A model generated the notes under the pieces. It was not told where the DNA came from, made no database searches, and saw nothing but the letters and a program-made list of their open reading frames with translations. Below are positions 4,537 through 13,909 of a stretch of 64,000 nt of DNA, piece by piece. Each line of letters opens with the position of its first letter. Position 1 is the first letter of the stretch. Made by a program: the position numbers and the translations under genes. Source of the DNA: Flavobacteriales bacterium (GTDB lineage: Bacteria; Bacteroidota; Bacteroidia; Flavobacteriales_F; PHOS-HE28); NCBI GenBank assembly GCA_019912395.1, contig JAIOIH010000045.1, positions 1-64,000 of the forward strand. Reading direction: 5' to 3'.

Positions 4537-6501
4537 TTACGGCTTCACGAAGCGGGTGTGGGCCCGGGTATTGCCCTCTTCGTCGGTGATCACCACGTTG
4601 TAGCTGCCCGGTGCAAGCTCGGAGATGTTCAACCGTGATGTCATCTTGTGCTCCAGGGCAAGGTGGCCCACCATGTCATATACTTTCACGTAGGCCGGTT
4701 TGCCGTCCGCTGTGTTGATGAAGAGTTCCGTGCTGGCGGGGTTGGGGTACACGGACAGTGGAAGCGGAGCATCGATCTCCGCAACGGCGCTGCCGAAGTC
4801 GGTGCCGACGCACACATTGAACGCGGTGGTTTGGCCCGGAGTGGACGTGTAGGTATATACCTGCAAGTAATAGGTGGTTCCAACCGTCAATCCGCCGATG
4901 TTCAGTGTTTGGGGATCGCTGCAGCTGTTGGGCACCAAGGTGAGGCTGCCGCAATCGCCGCTCCAGAGGGCCATGTACATGTCCACTACGGAGCCGGTGA
5001 TGTCAATGAGGCTGATGCGATGCAGCGTGTCCGTGGCGGTAAAGCTGAACCAGACATCATCATCGGCGGTGCCAGAGCAGGTGCTGGTGACATTGGACGG
5101 TGTGGCGCTGGCCACCGTGCCGGCCGTAACCGCGCTGCAACTGTAGTTCGGGTTCACGGTGAGGCCGAAAGCACCGTGGCACTCATCATTGGCCGGAGGG
5201 GGAGGGGGCGTGCCGATGCAGACGTTGAACGTGGTGTTCTGCCCCGGAATGGACGTATAGGTATAGACCTGCAGGTAGTAGGTGGTGCCCACCATCAGTC
5301 CTCCTACCAGTTTATTATTGGGGTCACTACAGCTATTGGGCACCAAGGTGAGGCTGCCGCAATCGCCGGTCCAGAGCGCCATGAACATGTCCGTGGCGGA
5401 GCCGGTGATGTTGGATAGGCTCATATGGTGCGCCGTGTCGGTAGCGGTAAAGGAGAACCAGACATCATCGTCGGCGGTGCCGCCGCAGGTGCTGGTGATA
5501 TTGGAGGCCGTGGCACCAGCGACCGTGCCTGCGGTAACGGCAGCACATCCATAGTCGGGGTTCACGGTAAGGGCGATCGCACCGCTGCATTCATCATTGG
5601 TGATGCCGGTGGTGAACGGAAATCCATTGCTCCAGTTGCTGAACGTCCCGTCGCCGCAATCCGACCTCACCCATGCGGTGTAGGGCGTTCCACTGGCCAA
5701 TCCCGTGATCGAAAGGTTGGTCCCGTCCCCGGAGGCGATCTCGTTGGTGCCGTTCGGGATAGCACTGGTGGTCACGGCCCATTCATATCCGGCGCTTCCA
5801 TTGTCCATCCAACTGATGGTCCCACCATCGGTGGTGATGCTGGTGACCTCCAGATTTTCCGGAGCGACACAGGAGGCGCGTTCAATAACGATGTTATCAA
5901 GCGCCCACCACCAATCCCAGCCCGCGTTGAACTGGAAGCGTACTTGGGCCATGGAGGATCCCCCGGTGGCCGTTGTAATGTTAATGTTCGTGGAAACGGC
6001 GGGGTTGGGATAGCCCACGTCGGTGGCCGTGTAGTAGGCGACCTCGACCCAGGACGTCCCGTTGTACACCTCCACCCGGGCGAAGGAGGCCAACCGGGCT
6101 CGGAATTGATGGGAGAAGGTCAGGATGTAGTTGCCGGAGGCGGAGGCATCGAAGGCGGGCGAAACAAGATAACTGTTCACGGAGATCCCGCTGCCACCGC
6201 ATTCATCACTGTCCAGGAAGACGAAGTCCGAATCGAAGCCGGCACCGGACGGAAGCGCCCCGCCAAAATCCTGGCTGAAGGTGTTCGGGGTGAGCCCGCC
6301 GGGCGCATAGGTCCACGAACAATCACTGGCCGTGTCCGCTACGGTGAAGCCCGTTGTGCTTGCACCGCCGGTGAAATCCTCACTGAGCACCACTTGGGCC
6401 TGGGCTGCTCCCGCGAATGCAGTTGCAATGACGACCAAGGCTGCTTGCCAGGGGATGCGGAAAGGTGTTGAACTGTTTCCGAGTGAATCGTTTTTCTTCA
6501 T
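4537..6501 (-). CDS. T9SS-sorted secreted protein with MAM/adhesin-like, fibronectin III and two repeat domains
   Basis: 654 residues from an ATG at 6499-6501; this start gives a good signal peptide (MKKNDSL..., hydrophobic core ending AGAAQAQ). Order: a jelly-roll of the MAM/cleaved-adhesin type (about 40-205, with NSYLVSPAFDASASG and WWWALDNIVIE); a fibronectin III domain (about 208-300); two tandem repeats of about 130 residues, each starting NDEC and containing DDDVWFSFTATDT and GTTYYLQVYTYTS, resembling bacterial pre-peptidase C-terminal domains; then a T9SS type A sorting domain (PLPLSVYPNPASTELFINTA to the C terminus). The product should be exported through the Sec and type IX systems and attached to the cell surface or released. 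No catalytic motif is seen; adhesion or matrix binding is inference. A hairpin terminator follows. Confidence 0.88.
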   Translation of the reverse strand: MKKNDSLGNSSTPFRIPWQAALVVIATAFAGAAQAQVVLSEDFTGGASTTGFTVADTASDCSWTYAPGGLTPNTFSQDFGGALPSGAGFDSDFVFLDSDECGGSGISVNSYLVSPAFDASASGNYILTFSHQFRARLASFARVEVYNGTSWVEVAYYTATDVGYPNPAVSTNINITTATGGSSMAQVRFQFNAGWDWWWALDNIVIERASCVAPENLEVTSITTDGGTISWMDNGSAGYEWAVTTSAIPNGTNEIASGDGTNLSITGLASGTPYTAWVRSDCGDGTFSNWSNGFPFTTGITNDECSGAIALTVNPDYGCAAVTAGTVAGATASNITSTCGGTADDDVWFSFTATDTAHHMSLSNITGSATDMFMALWTGDCGSLTLVPNSCSDPNNKLVGGLMVGTTYYLQVYTYTSIPGQNTTFNVCIGTPPPPPANDECHGAFGLTVNPNYSCSAVTAGTVASATPSNVTSTCSGTADDDVWFSFTATDTLHRISLIDITGSVVDMYMALWSGDCGSLTLVPNSCSDPQTLNIGGLTVGTTYYLQVYTYTSTPGQTTAFNVCVGTDFGSAVAEIDAPLPLSVYPNPASTELFINTADGKPAYVKVYDMVGHLALEHKMTSRLNISELAPGSYNVVITDEEGNTRAHTRFVKP

Positions 6502-6794
6502 GGTTACAGGGGTTTGTGTGTTGGAGGGTGTTACGCTGCATGGATCGGATCGCCAAGGAGCCCGTACCTGAAGACCAATGAGGCAGGTCCTTCGATGGTG
6601 GGTGCCGGGGTACCGGTGCCTGATCAATACGCGGGTACAAGGTACTGATGATGCAAGGGCCTGGCAGTTGGGAGCACAAAGAATGTGGCGGACCGCAAGG
6701 CAAGGTCACGATCGATCGTGCAAAACTGGATCGGCATTGTGCGCGTCCGTGCGTTGCTGCCGCCCACATTTGGCAAGTCCTCCATCCCCGGCAC

Positions 6795-8211: not shown

Positions 8212-10983
8212 TCAGTGGATCACGAGCCGTTCAATGCGTTGCCCGTTCGCGTGCTTGAGGCGGACGAGGTATACGCCGCTGGTGAGTCCCATCCGTTGAA
8301 GGTCGAAGACCGCTTGGCTTTCTCCGGCGTTGACCGTCTCGCTATGGATGGTCCGGCCGGTCATGTCCAGGAAGGAAAGGTTGCCGGTGGGTGCCCCGGC
8401 GAGGTCCATCACCACGGTGAGGCTGTTGCTGGCCGGATTGGGCATCAGGCCGAGCGAGCCACTTTGCGCGATCTCCGGGATGCCCACGTTCGTGGCGTTG
8501 ATGTTCACATCGTCGATGAAGAGATCGTTGGAGTACAAGCCCGACGTGTACTCGAACATGATGCGGACATGGTTGCCGGCAAAGATGCTGGGCAGGGTGA
8601 AAGTGCCCTCGCGCCACTCATCGGCCGCAGGTATGTACCCCGGCGAGCGAACACCGGCGGTGATCAGGTTCGGGCCGTCCAGGGTCAGGCGCAGCAGCCA
8701 CGACTTTCCGCAGCTGGTGGATGCATACACTTTCAAGCTTTCGGTAATGTCGTCCGTGGTCGCGGTCTGGGTGCTGTAAGCGTACCAGAAGCTCAGGGAA
8801 ATGCCGGTGTAGAACGGCATCTCCAGAATGGGCGTCACCAGAATATCCTTGTCCGCAAAGTTGTTCGGGGTGGAAAAGTCCTGGACCAGGTTGTACGTGT
8901 TCGAAGCATTGAGCTTGGCGCAGCCGGGGGCGTTGTGCCCGGCCTGATCGGACCAGTGCCAGTACGAGTTGTTCCTTTCGTAGTTGCGGGTGGGCCAGCG
9001 GTAAAAGTCGTTGTTGCTGTTGAACGGCTCCTGAAGCAGGCCGTTCACCTCCGGATAGTCCGCTCCGATAAGGAAGGCATCGGTCCTGGTGATCGAACCC
9101 GAGCCATGGTCATTGCCCACGGTAAGGGTTACACTATGGTACCCCGGTTCGCTGAATGAAACGGTGGGGTTCTGTTGGTCCGAGGTGGCCGGGTTTCCTC
9201 CGTCGAAGGTCCATGCCCAGGAAGTGGGGGTGGCGCGCTTGGAGTTGTCCTTGAACTGGATCGGGATGCCCGTACACACGAACTGGTCCATGGTGTAGAA
9301 GTCGGCCTCGGGAGCACAGGTCGCTTCGTGACCGGCCGTTCCGGTAAACATGTGGTTCTGTTCCTGCCACAAATTGTTACGACCGCTCACATCGCTGTTC
9401 AAGGTGGCGCGCATGCGTTCGCTTTGGCCGTTGGTGAACATCTTCCCACAATTGGAGTACTCCAAATAATTCTGCGTGTTCTCGATCACGCCGTACTGGC
9501 CCCGCAACGCCACGGAATCAATCGTGAAGGTACCGTCCCAGTCCTCGGCGTTCCATGCATAGATGCGGAAGGTGACCGGTGTAACAAGGTTCAAGTAGCC
9601 GACCGTTGGAGTGTTCACGCTGGCGGTATGCAGGGTGCCCGTGGTGTCCACGTTGAAGAAGAAGGTATTGGGGGATGCAACGGACAACCCCACGGTGTCC
9701 GCAGGTGCTACCGATGCTGGAATGTTGCTAATGAAGTTGTTGACGCTGCTACGCACTGCGAAGGTGCGGGGGCCGGTGGCCGAACGGTCCACGCGGAAGG
9801 TGAGGCCGTTCAGGGTCATGGACTTGCCAAATTCCGGAGTTACCGTGAAGGAATAGTACTGGGAGGAGTTCAGCTGACCGGTGAGGTCGCTATAGAGCGA
9901 GTCGCCATCGGAGGCGCCGCCATCCCATTGGGAGAAGCTGAAGTTCCCGTCCTGAAGGGAGTTCGCGGACACGCCCGAAGCGGTGAACGGGCTGAAGGTG
10001 ATCGCTGGTTCCACGGGAAAGTCCAAGTGGGCAGTGGGGGGCGCGGTGGGGTCGGTGGTGCCGGAGGTGAGGGTGACGTCCTGGAAGGTGTAGAACGTGT
10101 CCACCGGTTGCCAACTACAGAAGGAATCATGGAGGTCCGTTTCGGTGCAGCTACTATGTCCCCTGGTGATGGGGGTATCATCCACATTGTCGTCACCGCA
10201 TTCCACGCCGGGGTTGTGCCCGGCTCCCCAGGTGTGCTCCAGATTGAGGAAGTGGCCGACCTCGTGGGTCAGCGTGCGGGACCTGAATTCGTTGCTCGTA
10301 CCGTCACCGCCCGTGTAGTTGTGCAGCAGGATCACGCCGTCGACCAAGGAACCATAGTCGTCCTGCACGCTCGGGGGAAGCTGGGAGTAACCAGCCGGGG
10401 CAAAACCATCAGCCTGGCTTGCCAGCGAGTTGACGACCCAGATGTTGACGTAGGCATTCCGGGGCCAGGGATTGAGCTTGGAAAAATTCTGACCGTTCGT
10501 GGAGCGTTGGCTGGTGATGCGATCGATGCCGTTCGTGCAATTGCCAAAGGGGTCCTTGGTCGCCAATTGGAAATGGATGTTCGTGGTGGCCGCGATCGCG
10601 CTGAAACCGCAGCAGACCTCGGACAGGTCGGCGTTCATTTTCGCAAAGTCCCGGTTCATGATGTTCACCGCCTCATAGATCTGTGAGTCGCTGATGTTGT
10701 GGGCATCCGATCCCGTGGTGGGGTCATAAAGGACGTGGAAAACCAGGGGAACAACATAAACGGTCGTGTCGTCCCCGTCCCGGAGAGCCGCCCTCGCCTG
10801 TAAATAGGCTTGTATGCTCTGCTCATACGCTGCTTCCTGATGCAGCAGGTCGGGATTCTCCTGGATCATGCGTTGGCGAACTTCATCCATGCCGCACGGT
10901 TTGATTGACTGTGCGTGCAGGCCTACGGCGGGGAGCAGCACCGCGGCCGTGGTCAACGAGAGGACTAGGGAGAAAAGCTTCAT
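8212..10983 (-). CDS. Secreted M43 (pappalysin-like) metalloprotease with T9SS sorting domain, copy 1
   Basis: 923 residues from ATG 10983. Signal peptide to about residue 25 (ends GLHAQ). An M43-like catalytic domain follows with the zinc motif H240-E-x-x-H244-x5-H250 (HEVGHFLNLEH) and the pappalysin GDDNVDDTP segment. Family members usually reach the Met-turn within about 60 residues; here it comes at about 500 (NYLEYSNCGKMFT), after a roughly 200-residue beta-rich insertion (SQWDGGASDGDSLYSDL..., TFRIYAWNAEDWDGTFTIDS). The Met-turn methionine of the family appears as Leu (NYLEY). Then a PKD domain (about 585-665), a MAM-like jelly-roll (about 670-840) and a T9SS sorting domain (LGLMPNPASNSLTVVMDL to the end). 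Paralogue of the next gene upstream, which lies on the same strand. Probably an extracellular protease, if the altered Met-turn is tolerated. Confidence 0.9.
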   Translation of the reverse strand: MKLFSLVLSLTTAAVLLPAVGLHAQSIKPCGMDEVRQRMIQENPDLLHQEAAYEQSIQAYLQARAALRDGDDTTVYVVPLVFHVLYDPTTGSDAHNISDSQIYEAVNIMNRDFAKMNADLSEVCCGFSAIAATTNIHFQLATKDPFGNCTNGIDRITSQRSTNGQNFSKLNPWPRNAYVNIWVVNSLASQADGFAPAGYSQLPPSVQDDYGSLVDGVILLHNYTGGDGTSNEFRSRTLTHEVGHFLNLEHTWGAGHNPGVECGDDNVDDTPITRGHSSCTETDLHDSFCSWQPVDTFYTFQDVTLTSGTTDPTAPPTAHLDFPVEPAITFSPFTASGVSANSLQDGNFSFSQWDGGASDGDSLYSDLTGQLNSSQYYSFTVTPEFGKSMTLNGLTFRVDRSATGPRTFAVRSSVNNFISNIPASVAPADTVGLSVASPNTFFFNVDTTGTLHTASVNTPTVGYLNLVTPVTFRIYAWNAEDWDGTFTIDSVALRGQYGVIENTQNYLEYSNCGKMFTNGQSERMRATLNSDVSGRNNLWQEQNHMFTGTAGHEATCAPEADFYTMDQFVCTGIPIQFKDNSKRATPTSWAWTFDGGNPATSDQQNPTVSFSEPGYHSVTLTVGNDHGSGSITRTDAFLIGADYPEVNGLLQEPFNSNNDFYRWPTRNYERNNSYWHWSDQAGHNAPGCAKLNASNTYNLVQDFSTPNNFADKDILVTPILEMPFYTGISLSFWYAYSTQTATTDDITESLKVYASTSCGKSWLLRLTLDGPNLITAGVRSPGYIPAADEWREGTFTLPSIFAGNHVRIMFEYTSGLYSNDLFIDDVNINATNVGIPEIAQSGSLGLMPNPASNSLTVVMDLAGAPTGNLSFLDMTGRTIHSETVNAGESQAVFDLQRMGLTSGVYLVRLKHANGQRIERLVIH

Positions 10984-11002
10984 GGTGTAGGTTGGATGTG
11001 CG

Positions 11003-11010
11003 CAAAAGTA
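11003..11010 (-). promoter_or_regulatory. Putative -7 element (TACTTTTG)
   Basis: Exact TAnnTTTG on the minus strand, 20 bases before the ATG at 10983 of protease copy 1. No good TTG at the -33 distance. It suggests copy 1 has its own promoter, consistent with the terminator at 11128-11161 behind copy 2. Confidence 0.5.
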
Positions 11011-11127
11011 ATGGACAGCGCTGTAGTGGAGATCGAGGATCCGAGTGCCACGGTGTAACTGGGTGCGACACGTAACGGTGGTCCTGGTCCGGGGCGGCAG
11101 GGGGCGGTCGGCATGGTCCGGAACAAC

Positions 11128-11161
11128 AACGTGCCGCCAACCCGAAGGTTAACGGCACGTT
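11128..11161 (-). terminator. Intrinsic terminator-like hairpin after protease copy 2
   Basis: 9-bp arms AACGTGCCG (11128-11136) and CGGCACGTT (11153-11161), with an inner AACC/GGTT pairing around a CGAA loop. It starts 21 bases past the stop of the 11183-13909 gene. Confidence 0.65.
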
Positions 11162-11182
11162 GCCGATACGATGGGGGCGCTG

Positions 11183-13909
11183 TTAGCGCACCACGAGCCG
11201 TTCTACACGCTGCCCGTTCGCGTGCTTGAGGCGAACGAGGTAGACACCGCTGGTAAGCCCCATCTTGTCGAGGTCGAGTTCCAGTCGGGTATCGTTCGCG
11301 TTCAGTGTTCGGCTATGTACCGTCCGGCCTGTCATGTCCAGGAAGGAGAGGGTGCCCGTGCCGGCCCCGGCGAGGTCCAGCACCACGGTAAGGCTATTGG
11401 TGGCCGGGTTGGGCATCAGCCCGATCCATCCCTGCTCGGCAACCTCATCAATGCCGACGTTCGTGGCATTGATGTTCACATCGTCGATGTAGAGGTCGTT
11501 GGAGAACAAGCCGGACGAGTACTCGAACTTGAGTCGCACATGGTTGCCGGCGAAGATGCTGGGGAGGGTGAAGCTGGCTTCGCGCCACTCGTCGGCCGCA
11601 GGTACATATCCCGGGGAGCGAACCCCGGCGGTGATCAGGCTCGCGTCCTCCAAGGTGAGGCGCAACAGCCAGTTCTTTCCACAATCGGTGGAGGCATAAA
11701 CCTTCAGGGATTCAGTAATGTCGTCCGTGGTCGCGGTCTGGGTGCTGTAAGCATACCAGAAGCTCATGGAGAGGCCGGTGTAGAACGGCATTTCCAGGAT
11801 CGGGGTCACCAAGGCATCCTTGTCCTGGAAGTTGTTCGGGGTGAAGATGTCCTGGATCAAGGTATAGGTATCCGAGGCGTTGAGCTTGGCACATCCGGGT
11901 GCGTTGTGCCCGGCCTGATCGGACCAGTGCCAGTAGGTGCTGTTGCGCTCATAGTTCACGTTGGGCCAGCGGTAAAATTCGTTGTTGTTGTTGAACGGTT
12001 CCTGGAGCAGGCCGTTCACCTCCGGATAGTCGGCTCCGATAAGGAAGGCATCGGTCTTGGTGACCGAGCCCGAGCCATGGTCGTTGCCTGCTGTCAGTGT
12101 AACGCTGTGATATCCGGGTTCGCTGAAGCTAACGATCGGGTTCTCATCCGTGGAAGTGGCTGGATTCCCACCGTCGAAGGTCCAGGCCCAGGAGGTGGCC
12201 GTGGCGCGCTTGACGTTGGCCTTGAACTGAATGGGGGTGCCGGTGCATACAAAGCGGTCCAGCACGTAAAAATCGGATTCGGGGCCACAGGCTGCCTCAT
12301 GGCCGGCGGTTCCGGTATAGAGGTGGTTCCCCTCCTGCCACAGGCTACTGCGGTCGCTCACGGGGCTGTTCAAGGTGGCCCGCATGCGGTCGCGTTGGCC
12401 AGCGGTGAACATCACGGTGCAGTAGGAGTAGTCCATGTAGTTCTGGGCGTTGTCCACATCCCCGAAATCCCCGATCAATCGGAGTGAGTCCACGGCGAAG
12501 GCGCCATCGCCGTCCTCAGCGTTCCAGGCATAGATCCGGAAAGTGACCGCATTCCGAATGCTGTTGAATCCGGTAAAGGACACCTTGTTGCCTTTCCATT
12601 CACCTGCCGTGTCCGCACTGAAGAAGAAGGTGTTCGGGGGGTGTACCGAGATGAGGCTGTCCGGTCCGGTGAGGGAGGCCGCACTGTTGGAGGAGAAATT
12701 ATTGTTGGTGCTGGCCCGTACCGCAAAGGTGCGTGGCCCAGTGGCGGAACGCGATGCTCGGAAGATCATCCCCGACAGGGTCATCGTTTTTCCGAACGTG
12801 GGTGCAACGGTGAACTCGTAGTACTTGCCCGTATTGAGCGACCCGGTCATCTGGCTGAAGGCACTATCCCCCTCGGCCGCACCGGTGTCCCATTGAGAAA
12901 AGGAGAAGCGCCCGTCCTCCATGGGGTTCCCGGATACGCCATTGGCACTGAACGCGCCGTAGGTGAGGCCGGGAAGGCTGTCCTGGTAAAGACCTGCGGG
13001 CGGCATCGTGGGATCCGTGGCTCCTGAACCGGTGTTCAGGTCATCGAAGGTGTAGGCACCGTCAATGTCCCAGCTGTTGCAGGAGTGGTCCGTGGTATCA
13101 CAGGTGCTTAGATGGCCTTTGGTCATCGGAGTGTCCTCCACTCCATCATCGCCGCAGGCCGCTCCGACCTGGCCGTCACCCCATACGTGTAGCAGGTTCA
13201 GGAAGTGCCCCAGCTCGTGGGTGAGCGTGGTGGTGCTCAGTTCCGAGGATGGCATGATCACCCCATCGCGCAATGCACCGAGGTCGTCCTGCACGTATGC
13301 GGGGAGCTGGGAATAGCCCAAAACGGTTATGCCCGGTTGATCTTGATTCAGTGAGCGGATCACCCAGACATTCACGTAGTGGTTCCGGAACCACGGGTTG
13401 AGCTTGGAGAAATCCTGCGCTTGGGAAGCGCGCTGCGAGGTGATGCGATCAATGCCATTGGTGCAATTGCCGAACGGGTCCTTGGTGGCCAGTTGGAACT
13501 CCACCTTGATATCCGCAGCGATCGGCTTGAACGGGTCCACGATCTCCGCCGTATCGGCGTTCAGCTTCCTGAAATCCTGGTTCAGGACGTTCACTTGCGC
13601 GTAGATCGCCGCATCGCTCACATTGTGGTTATCGTTCGGGTAGGTGGGATCATACAGCACATGGAAGACGATGGGAATGACGTAGACGGCATCCTCCCCA
13701 TCATCGCGCATACCGGCCTTGGCCTGCAGGTATGCTTGCAAGCCGAGCTCGTACTCGGCGTTCTGCCGGAGCAGATCGGGGTTTTCCGCGATCAAGCGTT
13801 GTTGCACCTGGTCCGTGGCACATGGCAATACCTGCTGCCCTTGGGCAAGGCCCATGGCAAGCAGCGCGGGAATGATCAGCAAGGACCGGACGGTGTATGA
13901 GTGCTTCAT
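11183..13909 (-). CDS. Secreted M43 (pappalysin-like) metalloprotease with T9SS sorting domain, copy 2
   Basis: 908 residues from ATG 13909, signal peptide ending near GLAQGQ. Same architecture as the downstream paralogue: zinc motif H231-E-L-G-H235-x5-H241, GDDGVEDTP, a roughly 200-residue inserted beta-rich domain (about 285-480; SATGPRTFAVRASTNNN, TFRIYAWNAEDGDGAF), then an intact Met-turn NYMDYSYC (Met492), PKD domain, MAM-like domain and T9SS sorting domain (IGLMPNPATNSLTVVLDL). The C-terminal 400 residues are nearly identical in both copies, while the N-terminal halves have diverged more. Gene duplication followed by divergence is the simplest reading. This copy keeps all recognisable catalytic residues and is the better candidate for the active enzyme. 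Confidence 0.92.
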   Translation of the reverse strand: MKHSYTVRSLLIIPALLAMGLAQGQQVLPCATDQVQQRLIAENPDLLRQNAEYELGLQAYLQAKAGMRDDGEDAVYVIPIVFHVLYDPTYPNDNHNVSDAAIYAQVNVLNQDFRKLNADTAEIVDPFKPIAADIKVEFQLATKDPFGNCTNGIDRITSQRASQAQDFSKLNPWFRNHYVNVWVIRSLNQDQPGITVLGYSQLPAYVQDDLGALRDGVIMPSSELSTTTLTHELGHFLNLLHVWGDGQVGAACGDDGVEDTPMTKGHLSTCDTTDHSCNSWDIDGAYTFDDLNTGSGATDPTMPPAGLYQDSLPGLTYGAFSANGVSGNPMEDGRFSFSQWDTGAAEGDSAFSQMTGSLNTGKYYEFTVAPTFGKTMTLSGMIFRASRSATGPRTFAVRASTNNNFSSNSAASLTGPDSLISVHPPNTFFFSADTAGEWKGNKVSFTGFNSIRNAVTFRIYAWNAEDGDGAFAVDSLRLIGDFGDVDNAQNYMDYSYCTVMFTAGQRDRMRATLNSPVSDRSSLWQEGNHLYTGTAGHEAACGPESDFYVLDRFVCTGTPIQFKANVKRATATSWAWTFDGGNPATSTDENPIVSFSEPGYHSVTLTAGNDHGSGSVTKTDAFLIGADYPEVNGLLQEPFNNNNEFYRWPNVNYERNSTYWHWSDQAGHNAPGCAKLNASDTYTLIQDIFTPNNFQDKDALVTPILEMPFYTGLSMSFWYAYSTQTATTDDITESLKVYASTDCGKNWLLRLTLEDASLITAGVRSPGYVPAADEWREASFTLPSIFAGNHVRLKFEYSSGLFSNDLYIDDVNINATNVGIDEVAEQGWIGLMPNPATNSLTVVLDLAGAGTGTLSFLDMTGRTVHSRTLNANDTRLELDLDKMGLTSGVYLVRLKHANGQRVERLVVR

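Follow-up and report, generated by a model that had tools for sequence, protein, structure and literature searches.

Two neighbouring genes in a window of 64,000 nucleotides (the whole stretch analysed, positions 1 to 64,000 of contig JAIOIH010000045.1 from a Flavobacteriales bacterium) raise the question of how a zinc protease can assemble its active site when the chain between its zinc motif and its Met-turn is far longer than in its relatives, and what the additional chain is for. The genes are tandem paralogues on the minus strand with intact ORFs, and judged from sequence both encode secreted, cell-surface, T9SS-exported zinc proteases of the pappalysin family (M43). Their features are as follows.

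8212..10983, minus strand: copy 1, predicted T9SS-exported M43 protease, 923 aa, with signal peptide, pro-segment with Cys30, split M43 domain with nested domain, PKD domain and T9SS tail (sequence and domain profiles)
10117..10761, minus strand: copy 1 M43 N-terminal part, residues 75-289, with HEVGHFLNLEH at 240-250 and GDDNVDDTP (Pfam; boundaries by comparison with uninserted relatives)
9490..10116, minus strand: copy 1 nested beta-sandwich domain, residues 290-498, 209 aa (split profile and boundary comparison)
9361..9489, minus strand: copy 1 M43 C-terminal part, residues 499-541, with Met-turn NYLEYS in which Leu507 replaces Met (split profile and sequence)
9076..9315, minus strand: copy 1 PKD domain, residues 557-636 (Pfam)
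8218..8442, minus strand: copy 1 T9SS type A sorting domain, residues 848-922 (Pfam, NCBIfam)
11183..13909, minus strand: copy 2, tandem paralogue, 908 aa, of the same architecture plus a choice-of-anchor-J match after the PKD domain (sequence and domain profiles)
13079..13687, minus strand: copy 2 M43 N-terminal part, residues 75-277, with HELGHFLNLLH at 231-241, GDDGVEDTP and Cys252/270/277 (Pfam; AF2 model)
12458..13078, minus strand: copy 2 nested beta-sandwich domain, residues 278-484, 207 aa, predicted to fold alone at pLDDT 90 (boundary comparison and AF2)
12335..12457, minus strand: copy 2 M43 C-terminal part, residues 485-525, with Met-turn NYMDYS (Met492), Cys497 and C-terminal helix (split profile and AF2 model)
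12044..12265, minus strand: copy 2 PKD domain, residues 549-622 (Pfam)
11471..12010, minus strand: copy 2 choice-of-anchor-J (MAM-like) domain, residues 634-813 (NCBIfam)
11189..11413, minus strand: copy 2 T9SS type A sorting domain, residues 833-907 (Pfam, NCBIfam)

The sequence-only reading of this DNA had proposed that a domain of about 200 residues sits inside both catalytic domains with no break in the reading frame, and the domain profiles bear this out. The Pfam profile PF05572 (Peptidase_M43) matches both proteins well above its curated cut-off of 23 (67.9 and 65.2 bits), each in two separate stretches; in a genome-wide M43 scan the split falls at profile positions 10-120 and 121-151 in copy 1 and 9-124 and 120-151 in copy 2, and the three other M43 genes of the same genome match in a single piece. 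In each protein some 208 residues separate the third conserved Cys from the Met-turn. Counted from the first zinc His, the Met-turn residue lies at a distance of 267 in copy 1 and 261 in copy 2, and the excess that had been noted over relatives needing 50-60 residues is real: in 49 uninserted relatives the comparable distance, which ends at the N of NxMDY and so two residues before the Met-turn residue used for the window proteins, is 52-92 and mostly 56-60. The published figures are 53 for cytophagalysin (PMC11674741) and 63 for PAPP-A (PMC9579167).

The uninserted chain runs ...C-x(5-9)-C-NPG-[VI]IENVQNYMEYS, and the insert replaces the two or three residues, often NPG, that link the third Cys to [VI]IENxQNYM. 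The module thus begins directly after that Cys and stops about 8 residues before the Met-turn residue. Downstream of HExxH, the median lengths of inserted and uninserted proteins differ by 211.5 residues and their slots by 202, which indicates that the architecture is otherwise the same. One M43 protein (L116:4737-7013) has a different extension of about 35 residues in this loop, placed ahead of the third Cys, and its slot of 92 is without the module.

That two genes or a misread frame had been wrongly joined is hardly conceivable, as the same continuous frame and the same boundaries recur in both window paralogues and in tens of independent genomes. Between the paralogues, identity is 60% over the protease half, 55% over the insert and 84% over the PKD and anchor region; together with the ordinary GC3 of the insert and its conservation over many genomes, this identity means that the insert is neither chance nor the product of a frameshift. 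Recent lateral acquisition by the window genome was also considered and rejected, since insert and core have similar GC and GC3, and distances in the core are correlated with those in the insert (r 0.69, a value reached in 0 of 2000 permutations). From this correlation core and insert have travelled together for most members.

Whether a protease cut in this way can still close was addressed by structure prediction. Residues 26-552 of copy 2 were modelled with AF2 from 69 aligned M43 domains, some with and some without the insert, the uninserted rows helping the core to close, and the whole nested domain was predicted with a pLDDT of 91.8 and a pTM of 0.88. Proulilysin superposes on the model (VIA-align) over 280 of 306 residues at 2.2 Å with a Z of 31.2 and 36% identity, and promirolysin follows with a Z of 31.1, the PAPP-A chains coming next at 16-18. 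Since the proulilysin superposition covers model residues 1-501, that is both sides of the insert, zinc site, Met-turn and C-terminal helix are predicted to form one fold around it, contrary to an outcome that would have spoken against the nested arrangement. The cysteines are consistent with this. Mirolysin has disulfides Cys243-271 and Cys262-291 (PMC6949598), and Cys252, 270, 277 and 497 of copy 2 align in order with mirolysin Cys243, 262, 271 and 291, so a putative C270-C497 bridge would span the insert. The two putative disulfides of copy 2, C252-C277 and C270-C497, should fasten the slot to the protease core at either end, and with the ends so held the protease, in its predicted fold, could close around the insert.

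The catalytic residues have been kept. The motif HExxHxx[GN]xxH is intact as HEVGHFLNLEH in copy 1 and HELGHFLNLLH in copy 2, and because all zinc ligands and the catalytic Glu, the general base, are present in both, catalysis is probably intact. The positions given earlier for H240, H231, the GDDxVxDTP segment and Met492 of copy 2 hold; for copy 1 the assumed Met-turn methionine does not, the turn there reading NYLEYS with Leu507. This substitution, and the lack in both copies of the aspartate of the S1-prime pocket, could be taken to mean that the proteins are proteases turned adhesins, in which the nested module does the work and, in copy 1 at least, catalysis is lost. That is very improbable, given the intact ligands and base, and given that most inserted relatives retain Met while an uninserted M43 protein (L081, NFLEYS) has the same natural Met-to-Leu change. 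The M290L mutant of ulilysin (3lum), with the identical replacement, folds and its structure has been solved, and by analogy with it the Leu of copy 1, though unusual, should be structurally tolerated.

The S1-prime aspartate itself, at Met+5 in mirolysin and PAPP-A, gives a preference for basic (Lys/Arg) P1-prime residues (PMC6949598). It is missing here because the turn is two residues shorter, copy 2 having Cys497 at that position, and so the usual Lys/Arg preference is not expected. Nearly all of these Bacteroidota M43 proteins lack it (turn NYMEYSYC). It is a specificity feature within pappalysins and not a criterion of family membership.

The insert alone is predicted by AF2 to be a beta-sandwich with a pLDDT of 90 and a pTM of 0.89. 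Its matches to known folds are middling, with Z up to 9.2, and comprise BcsB, CBM27, CBM15, CBM4, CBM22 and Kgp adhesin domains. The four CBM matches have Z of 7.8-8.9 with 7-16% identity, and the predicted module resembles these and the Kgp K1-K3 adhesin domains in its beta-sandwich (Z 7.8-8.9) but has no sequence match to them. Middling values of this kind can reflect only a common sandwich arrangement and indicate no ligand; as far as the model goes, the relationship is confined to the fold, and no known ligand residues were found. None of 35 insert members matches a CBM profile in Pfam and NCBIfam scans, which gave only isolated weak matches in single members and no family entry, and phmmer of the insert against PDB sequences gave no match. 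Homology to the C-terminal choice-of-anchor-J domain, which likewise ends in an IDxVxxxG-like strand, was tried and dropped, as profile comparison gave a probability of 8%.

Searching with the insert alone at the level of the class Bacteroidia and of the phylum did reveal a family, both in many other M43 proteins and outside proteases. Matches to the insert profile occur in 59 of 396 Bacteroidia genomes, and many are in secreted non-protease proteins of about 310-340 residues that consist of a signal peptide, one module and a T9SS tail. Among the more distant homologues in other parts of the phylum is a PEP-CTERM protein (L198), and the likeness to the beta-sandwich of PEP-CTERM and surface proteins that had been suspected from sequence is thereby confirmed. 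Homology to these free-standing proteins (L167, L169-L171, L173-L191, L198) spans the whole domain, at E values mostly of 1e-50 to 1e-69 for the T9SS forms and about 1e-13 for the PEP-CTERM form; they are of the same domain family as the insert but joined to no protease. The small one-module T9SS proteins L173-L191 are without a Pfam or NCBIfam entry and are often neighbouring paralogues; tandem pairs of such secreted proteins occur in some cases.

Within M43 the module is found in 25 of 45 genomes of the genus and in several other Bacteroidia families. In 99 M43 proteins from genomes, collected with queries that favoured the insert so that group sizes are no frequencies, the HExxH-to-Met-turn distance is multimodal, with values of 52-92 (n=49), 222-295 (n=44), 458-463 (n=3) and 739-927 (n=3). 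Slot length thus steps by about 200, and read from sequence the groups correspond to no insert, one module, two modules in tandem and an interrupted module. L066 has two matches to the module profile (296-499 and 502-704), both at E below 1e-70. In L077 profile positions 8-138 match at residues 288-416 (E 5e-35) and positions 122-209 at 1057-1155 (E 2e-15); about 640 residues of repeats, some Ig-like by Pfam, lie between the pieces, and the Met-turn comes after the second. In L027, L028, L070 and L072 an interruption of about 450 residues is elsewhere in the module, just before its last strand, and the returning piece is short and weak (E 0.01-0.1) yet adjoins the Met-turn in all four. Because there are two different entry points, at least two separate interruption events took place. 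In proteins with interrupted modules the halves of the active site are 739-927 residues apart in sequence.

The history of the module looks different from its two sides. In a tree of the domain, 29 free-standing copies (the M43 genes L099 and L117, cut by contig ends, having been dropped from their count) are separated with support (SH-aLRT 99.6) from all the M43-borne copies, one change sufficing, which indicates that the module in M43 is a single M43-specific lineage, stable across several families. In a tree of the protease core, with insert columns excluded, at least 7-10 switches between presence and absence are needed and a single clade of inserted cores is rejected (AU test, p-AU 7e-5), so that for the sequences sampled this tree can be explained only if the module was repeatedly lost or exchanged. 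Both trees are reconciled most simply by a single capture, after which the module was cleanly lost several times or passed between M43 paralogues; the direction is something we infer, as the trees are unrooted and the alignments short.

Such repeated absence from related M43 lineages suggests that the module is dispensable for catalysis. It also tells against an exosite and in favour of the main rival, in which the loop is permissive and the module a passenger, captured once and persisting with little function beyond bulk or stability. That two modules and repeat-swollen modules are also tolerated fits such a passenger, as does the somewhat faster evolution of the insert than of the core (mean pairwise difference 0.58 against 0.48). 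Nevertheless we regard it as unlikely, for the insert alignment keeps invariant R, G, Y, N and E columns, core motifs shared across families, the module is retained in over half of the genomes of the genus, and its M43-borne form is the one stable lineage just described.

The reading that we favour, and hold to be probably correct, is of an independently folding sandwich that is nested in the loop from zinc helix to Met-turn, lies beside the cleft and most likely serves as an exosite, in a slot tolerating further growth. The geometry of this loop, the ZnM loop, and the precedent for modules beside the cleft come from PAPP-A (PMC9579167), and the placement of the present module relative to the cleft is by analogy with it. 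The module would be nested in the second lobe of the loop and presented beside the cleft, where a binding-type sandwich is most simply understood as an exosite; it would bind substrate, matrix glycan or surface polymer, keeping the target near the zinc. The slot would accept growth either by tandem duplication of the module or by Ig-like repeats entering it. A bolder version, which we hold tentatively and at a little short of an even chance, is that the ZnM loop of Bacteroidota M43 proteases acts as a docking site in evolution: a sandwich able to bind surfaces would have entered it a single time and later been lost, duplicated or interrupted by Ig-like repeats, and modular exosites nested up to three levels deep would set the substrate by presenting it at the lower rim of the cleft.

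That same position at the lower rim, deduced by homology with PAPP-A (PMC9579167), would also suit a gate or latency element, the module covering or moving over the active site in addition to the N-terminal cysteine switch. Latency in pappalysins is by such a switch from a Cys of the pro-segment (PMC6949598), and with Cys30 conserved in both copies a switch is already supplied and a gate less needed. Moreover, uninserted paralogues work from the same architecture without the module, and we consider a gate improbable.

The exosite reading is best set beside other nested modules, which are already known in metzincins. MMP-2 and MMP-9 have three substrate-binding fibronectin type II modules in the catalytic domain, inserted before HExxH; they share the principle of nesting but differ in protease family, module fold and insertion point. 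In PAPP-A and PAPP-A2, LNR1-2 are in the catalytic domain by the cleft and are needed to cleave a particular substrate; each LNR module of PAPP-A has about 30 residues and is above the cleft, inserted upstream of HExxH (PMC9579167). The window proteins share with PAPP-A the nesting of modules in an M43 catalytic domain, but their insert is downstream of HExxH, after GDDxVxDTP, without an LNR-type upstream insertion, and is an unrelated 208-residue sandwich in the ZnM loop, below the cleft by analogy. Ulilysin and mirolysin (MEROPS M43) have the catalytic fold, the pro-segment Cys, HExxHxxNxxH, the calcium-site region and the Met-turn region in common with them, and differ in a short loop from zinc site to Met-turn without a nested module and in the Met+5 Asp that the window proteins lack. 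Cytophagalysin CPL1, from Bacteroidota and of the pappalysin family, has C-terminal Ig-like domains and a putative T9SS C-terminal domain (PMC11674741); it is a similar Bacteroidota pappalysin, but its catalytic domain has no nested domain.

None of the characterised pappalysins examined has the insertion, and many uncharacterised ones do. A search of the freely accessible literature found no description of such an insertion. The initial suggestion of a new protease architecture can thus be upheld for this slot and protease family as far as found, but not in its general form, since the arrangement is common to many relatives and nested modules in metzincins have precedents. What is new, as far as found, is the module, the slot and the graded series of states across many genomes.

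The series provides one protease fold with zero, one, two or internally interrupted modules at a fixed point beside the active site, and allows the question of how proteases acquire substrate exosites through domain nesting to be put to a direct test among close relatives. From the perspective of annotation, these enzymes look like broken M43 fragments to Pfam-style scans, and neither Pfam nor NCBIfam has an entry for the nested domain.

Next to the pair in the window, at 4537-6627, is a gene for a surface protein that has a T9SS tail, a fibronectin-like segment and two internal modules almost identical to each other (NDECxGAxxLTVNP...). Inserted M43 genes are commonly in tandem pairs across genera, as at 8212-13909 and in L041, L042, L045, L048, L054 and L058, which suggests an old duplication kept in place.
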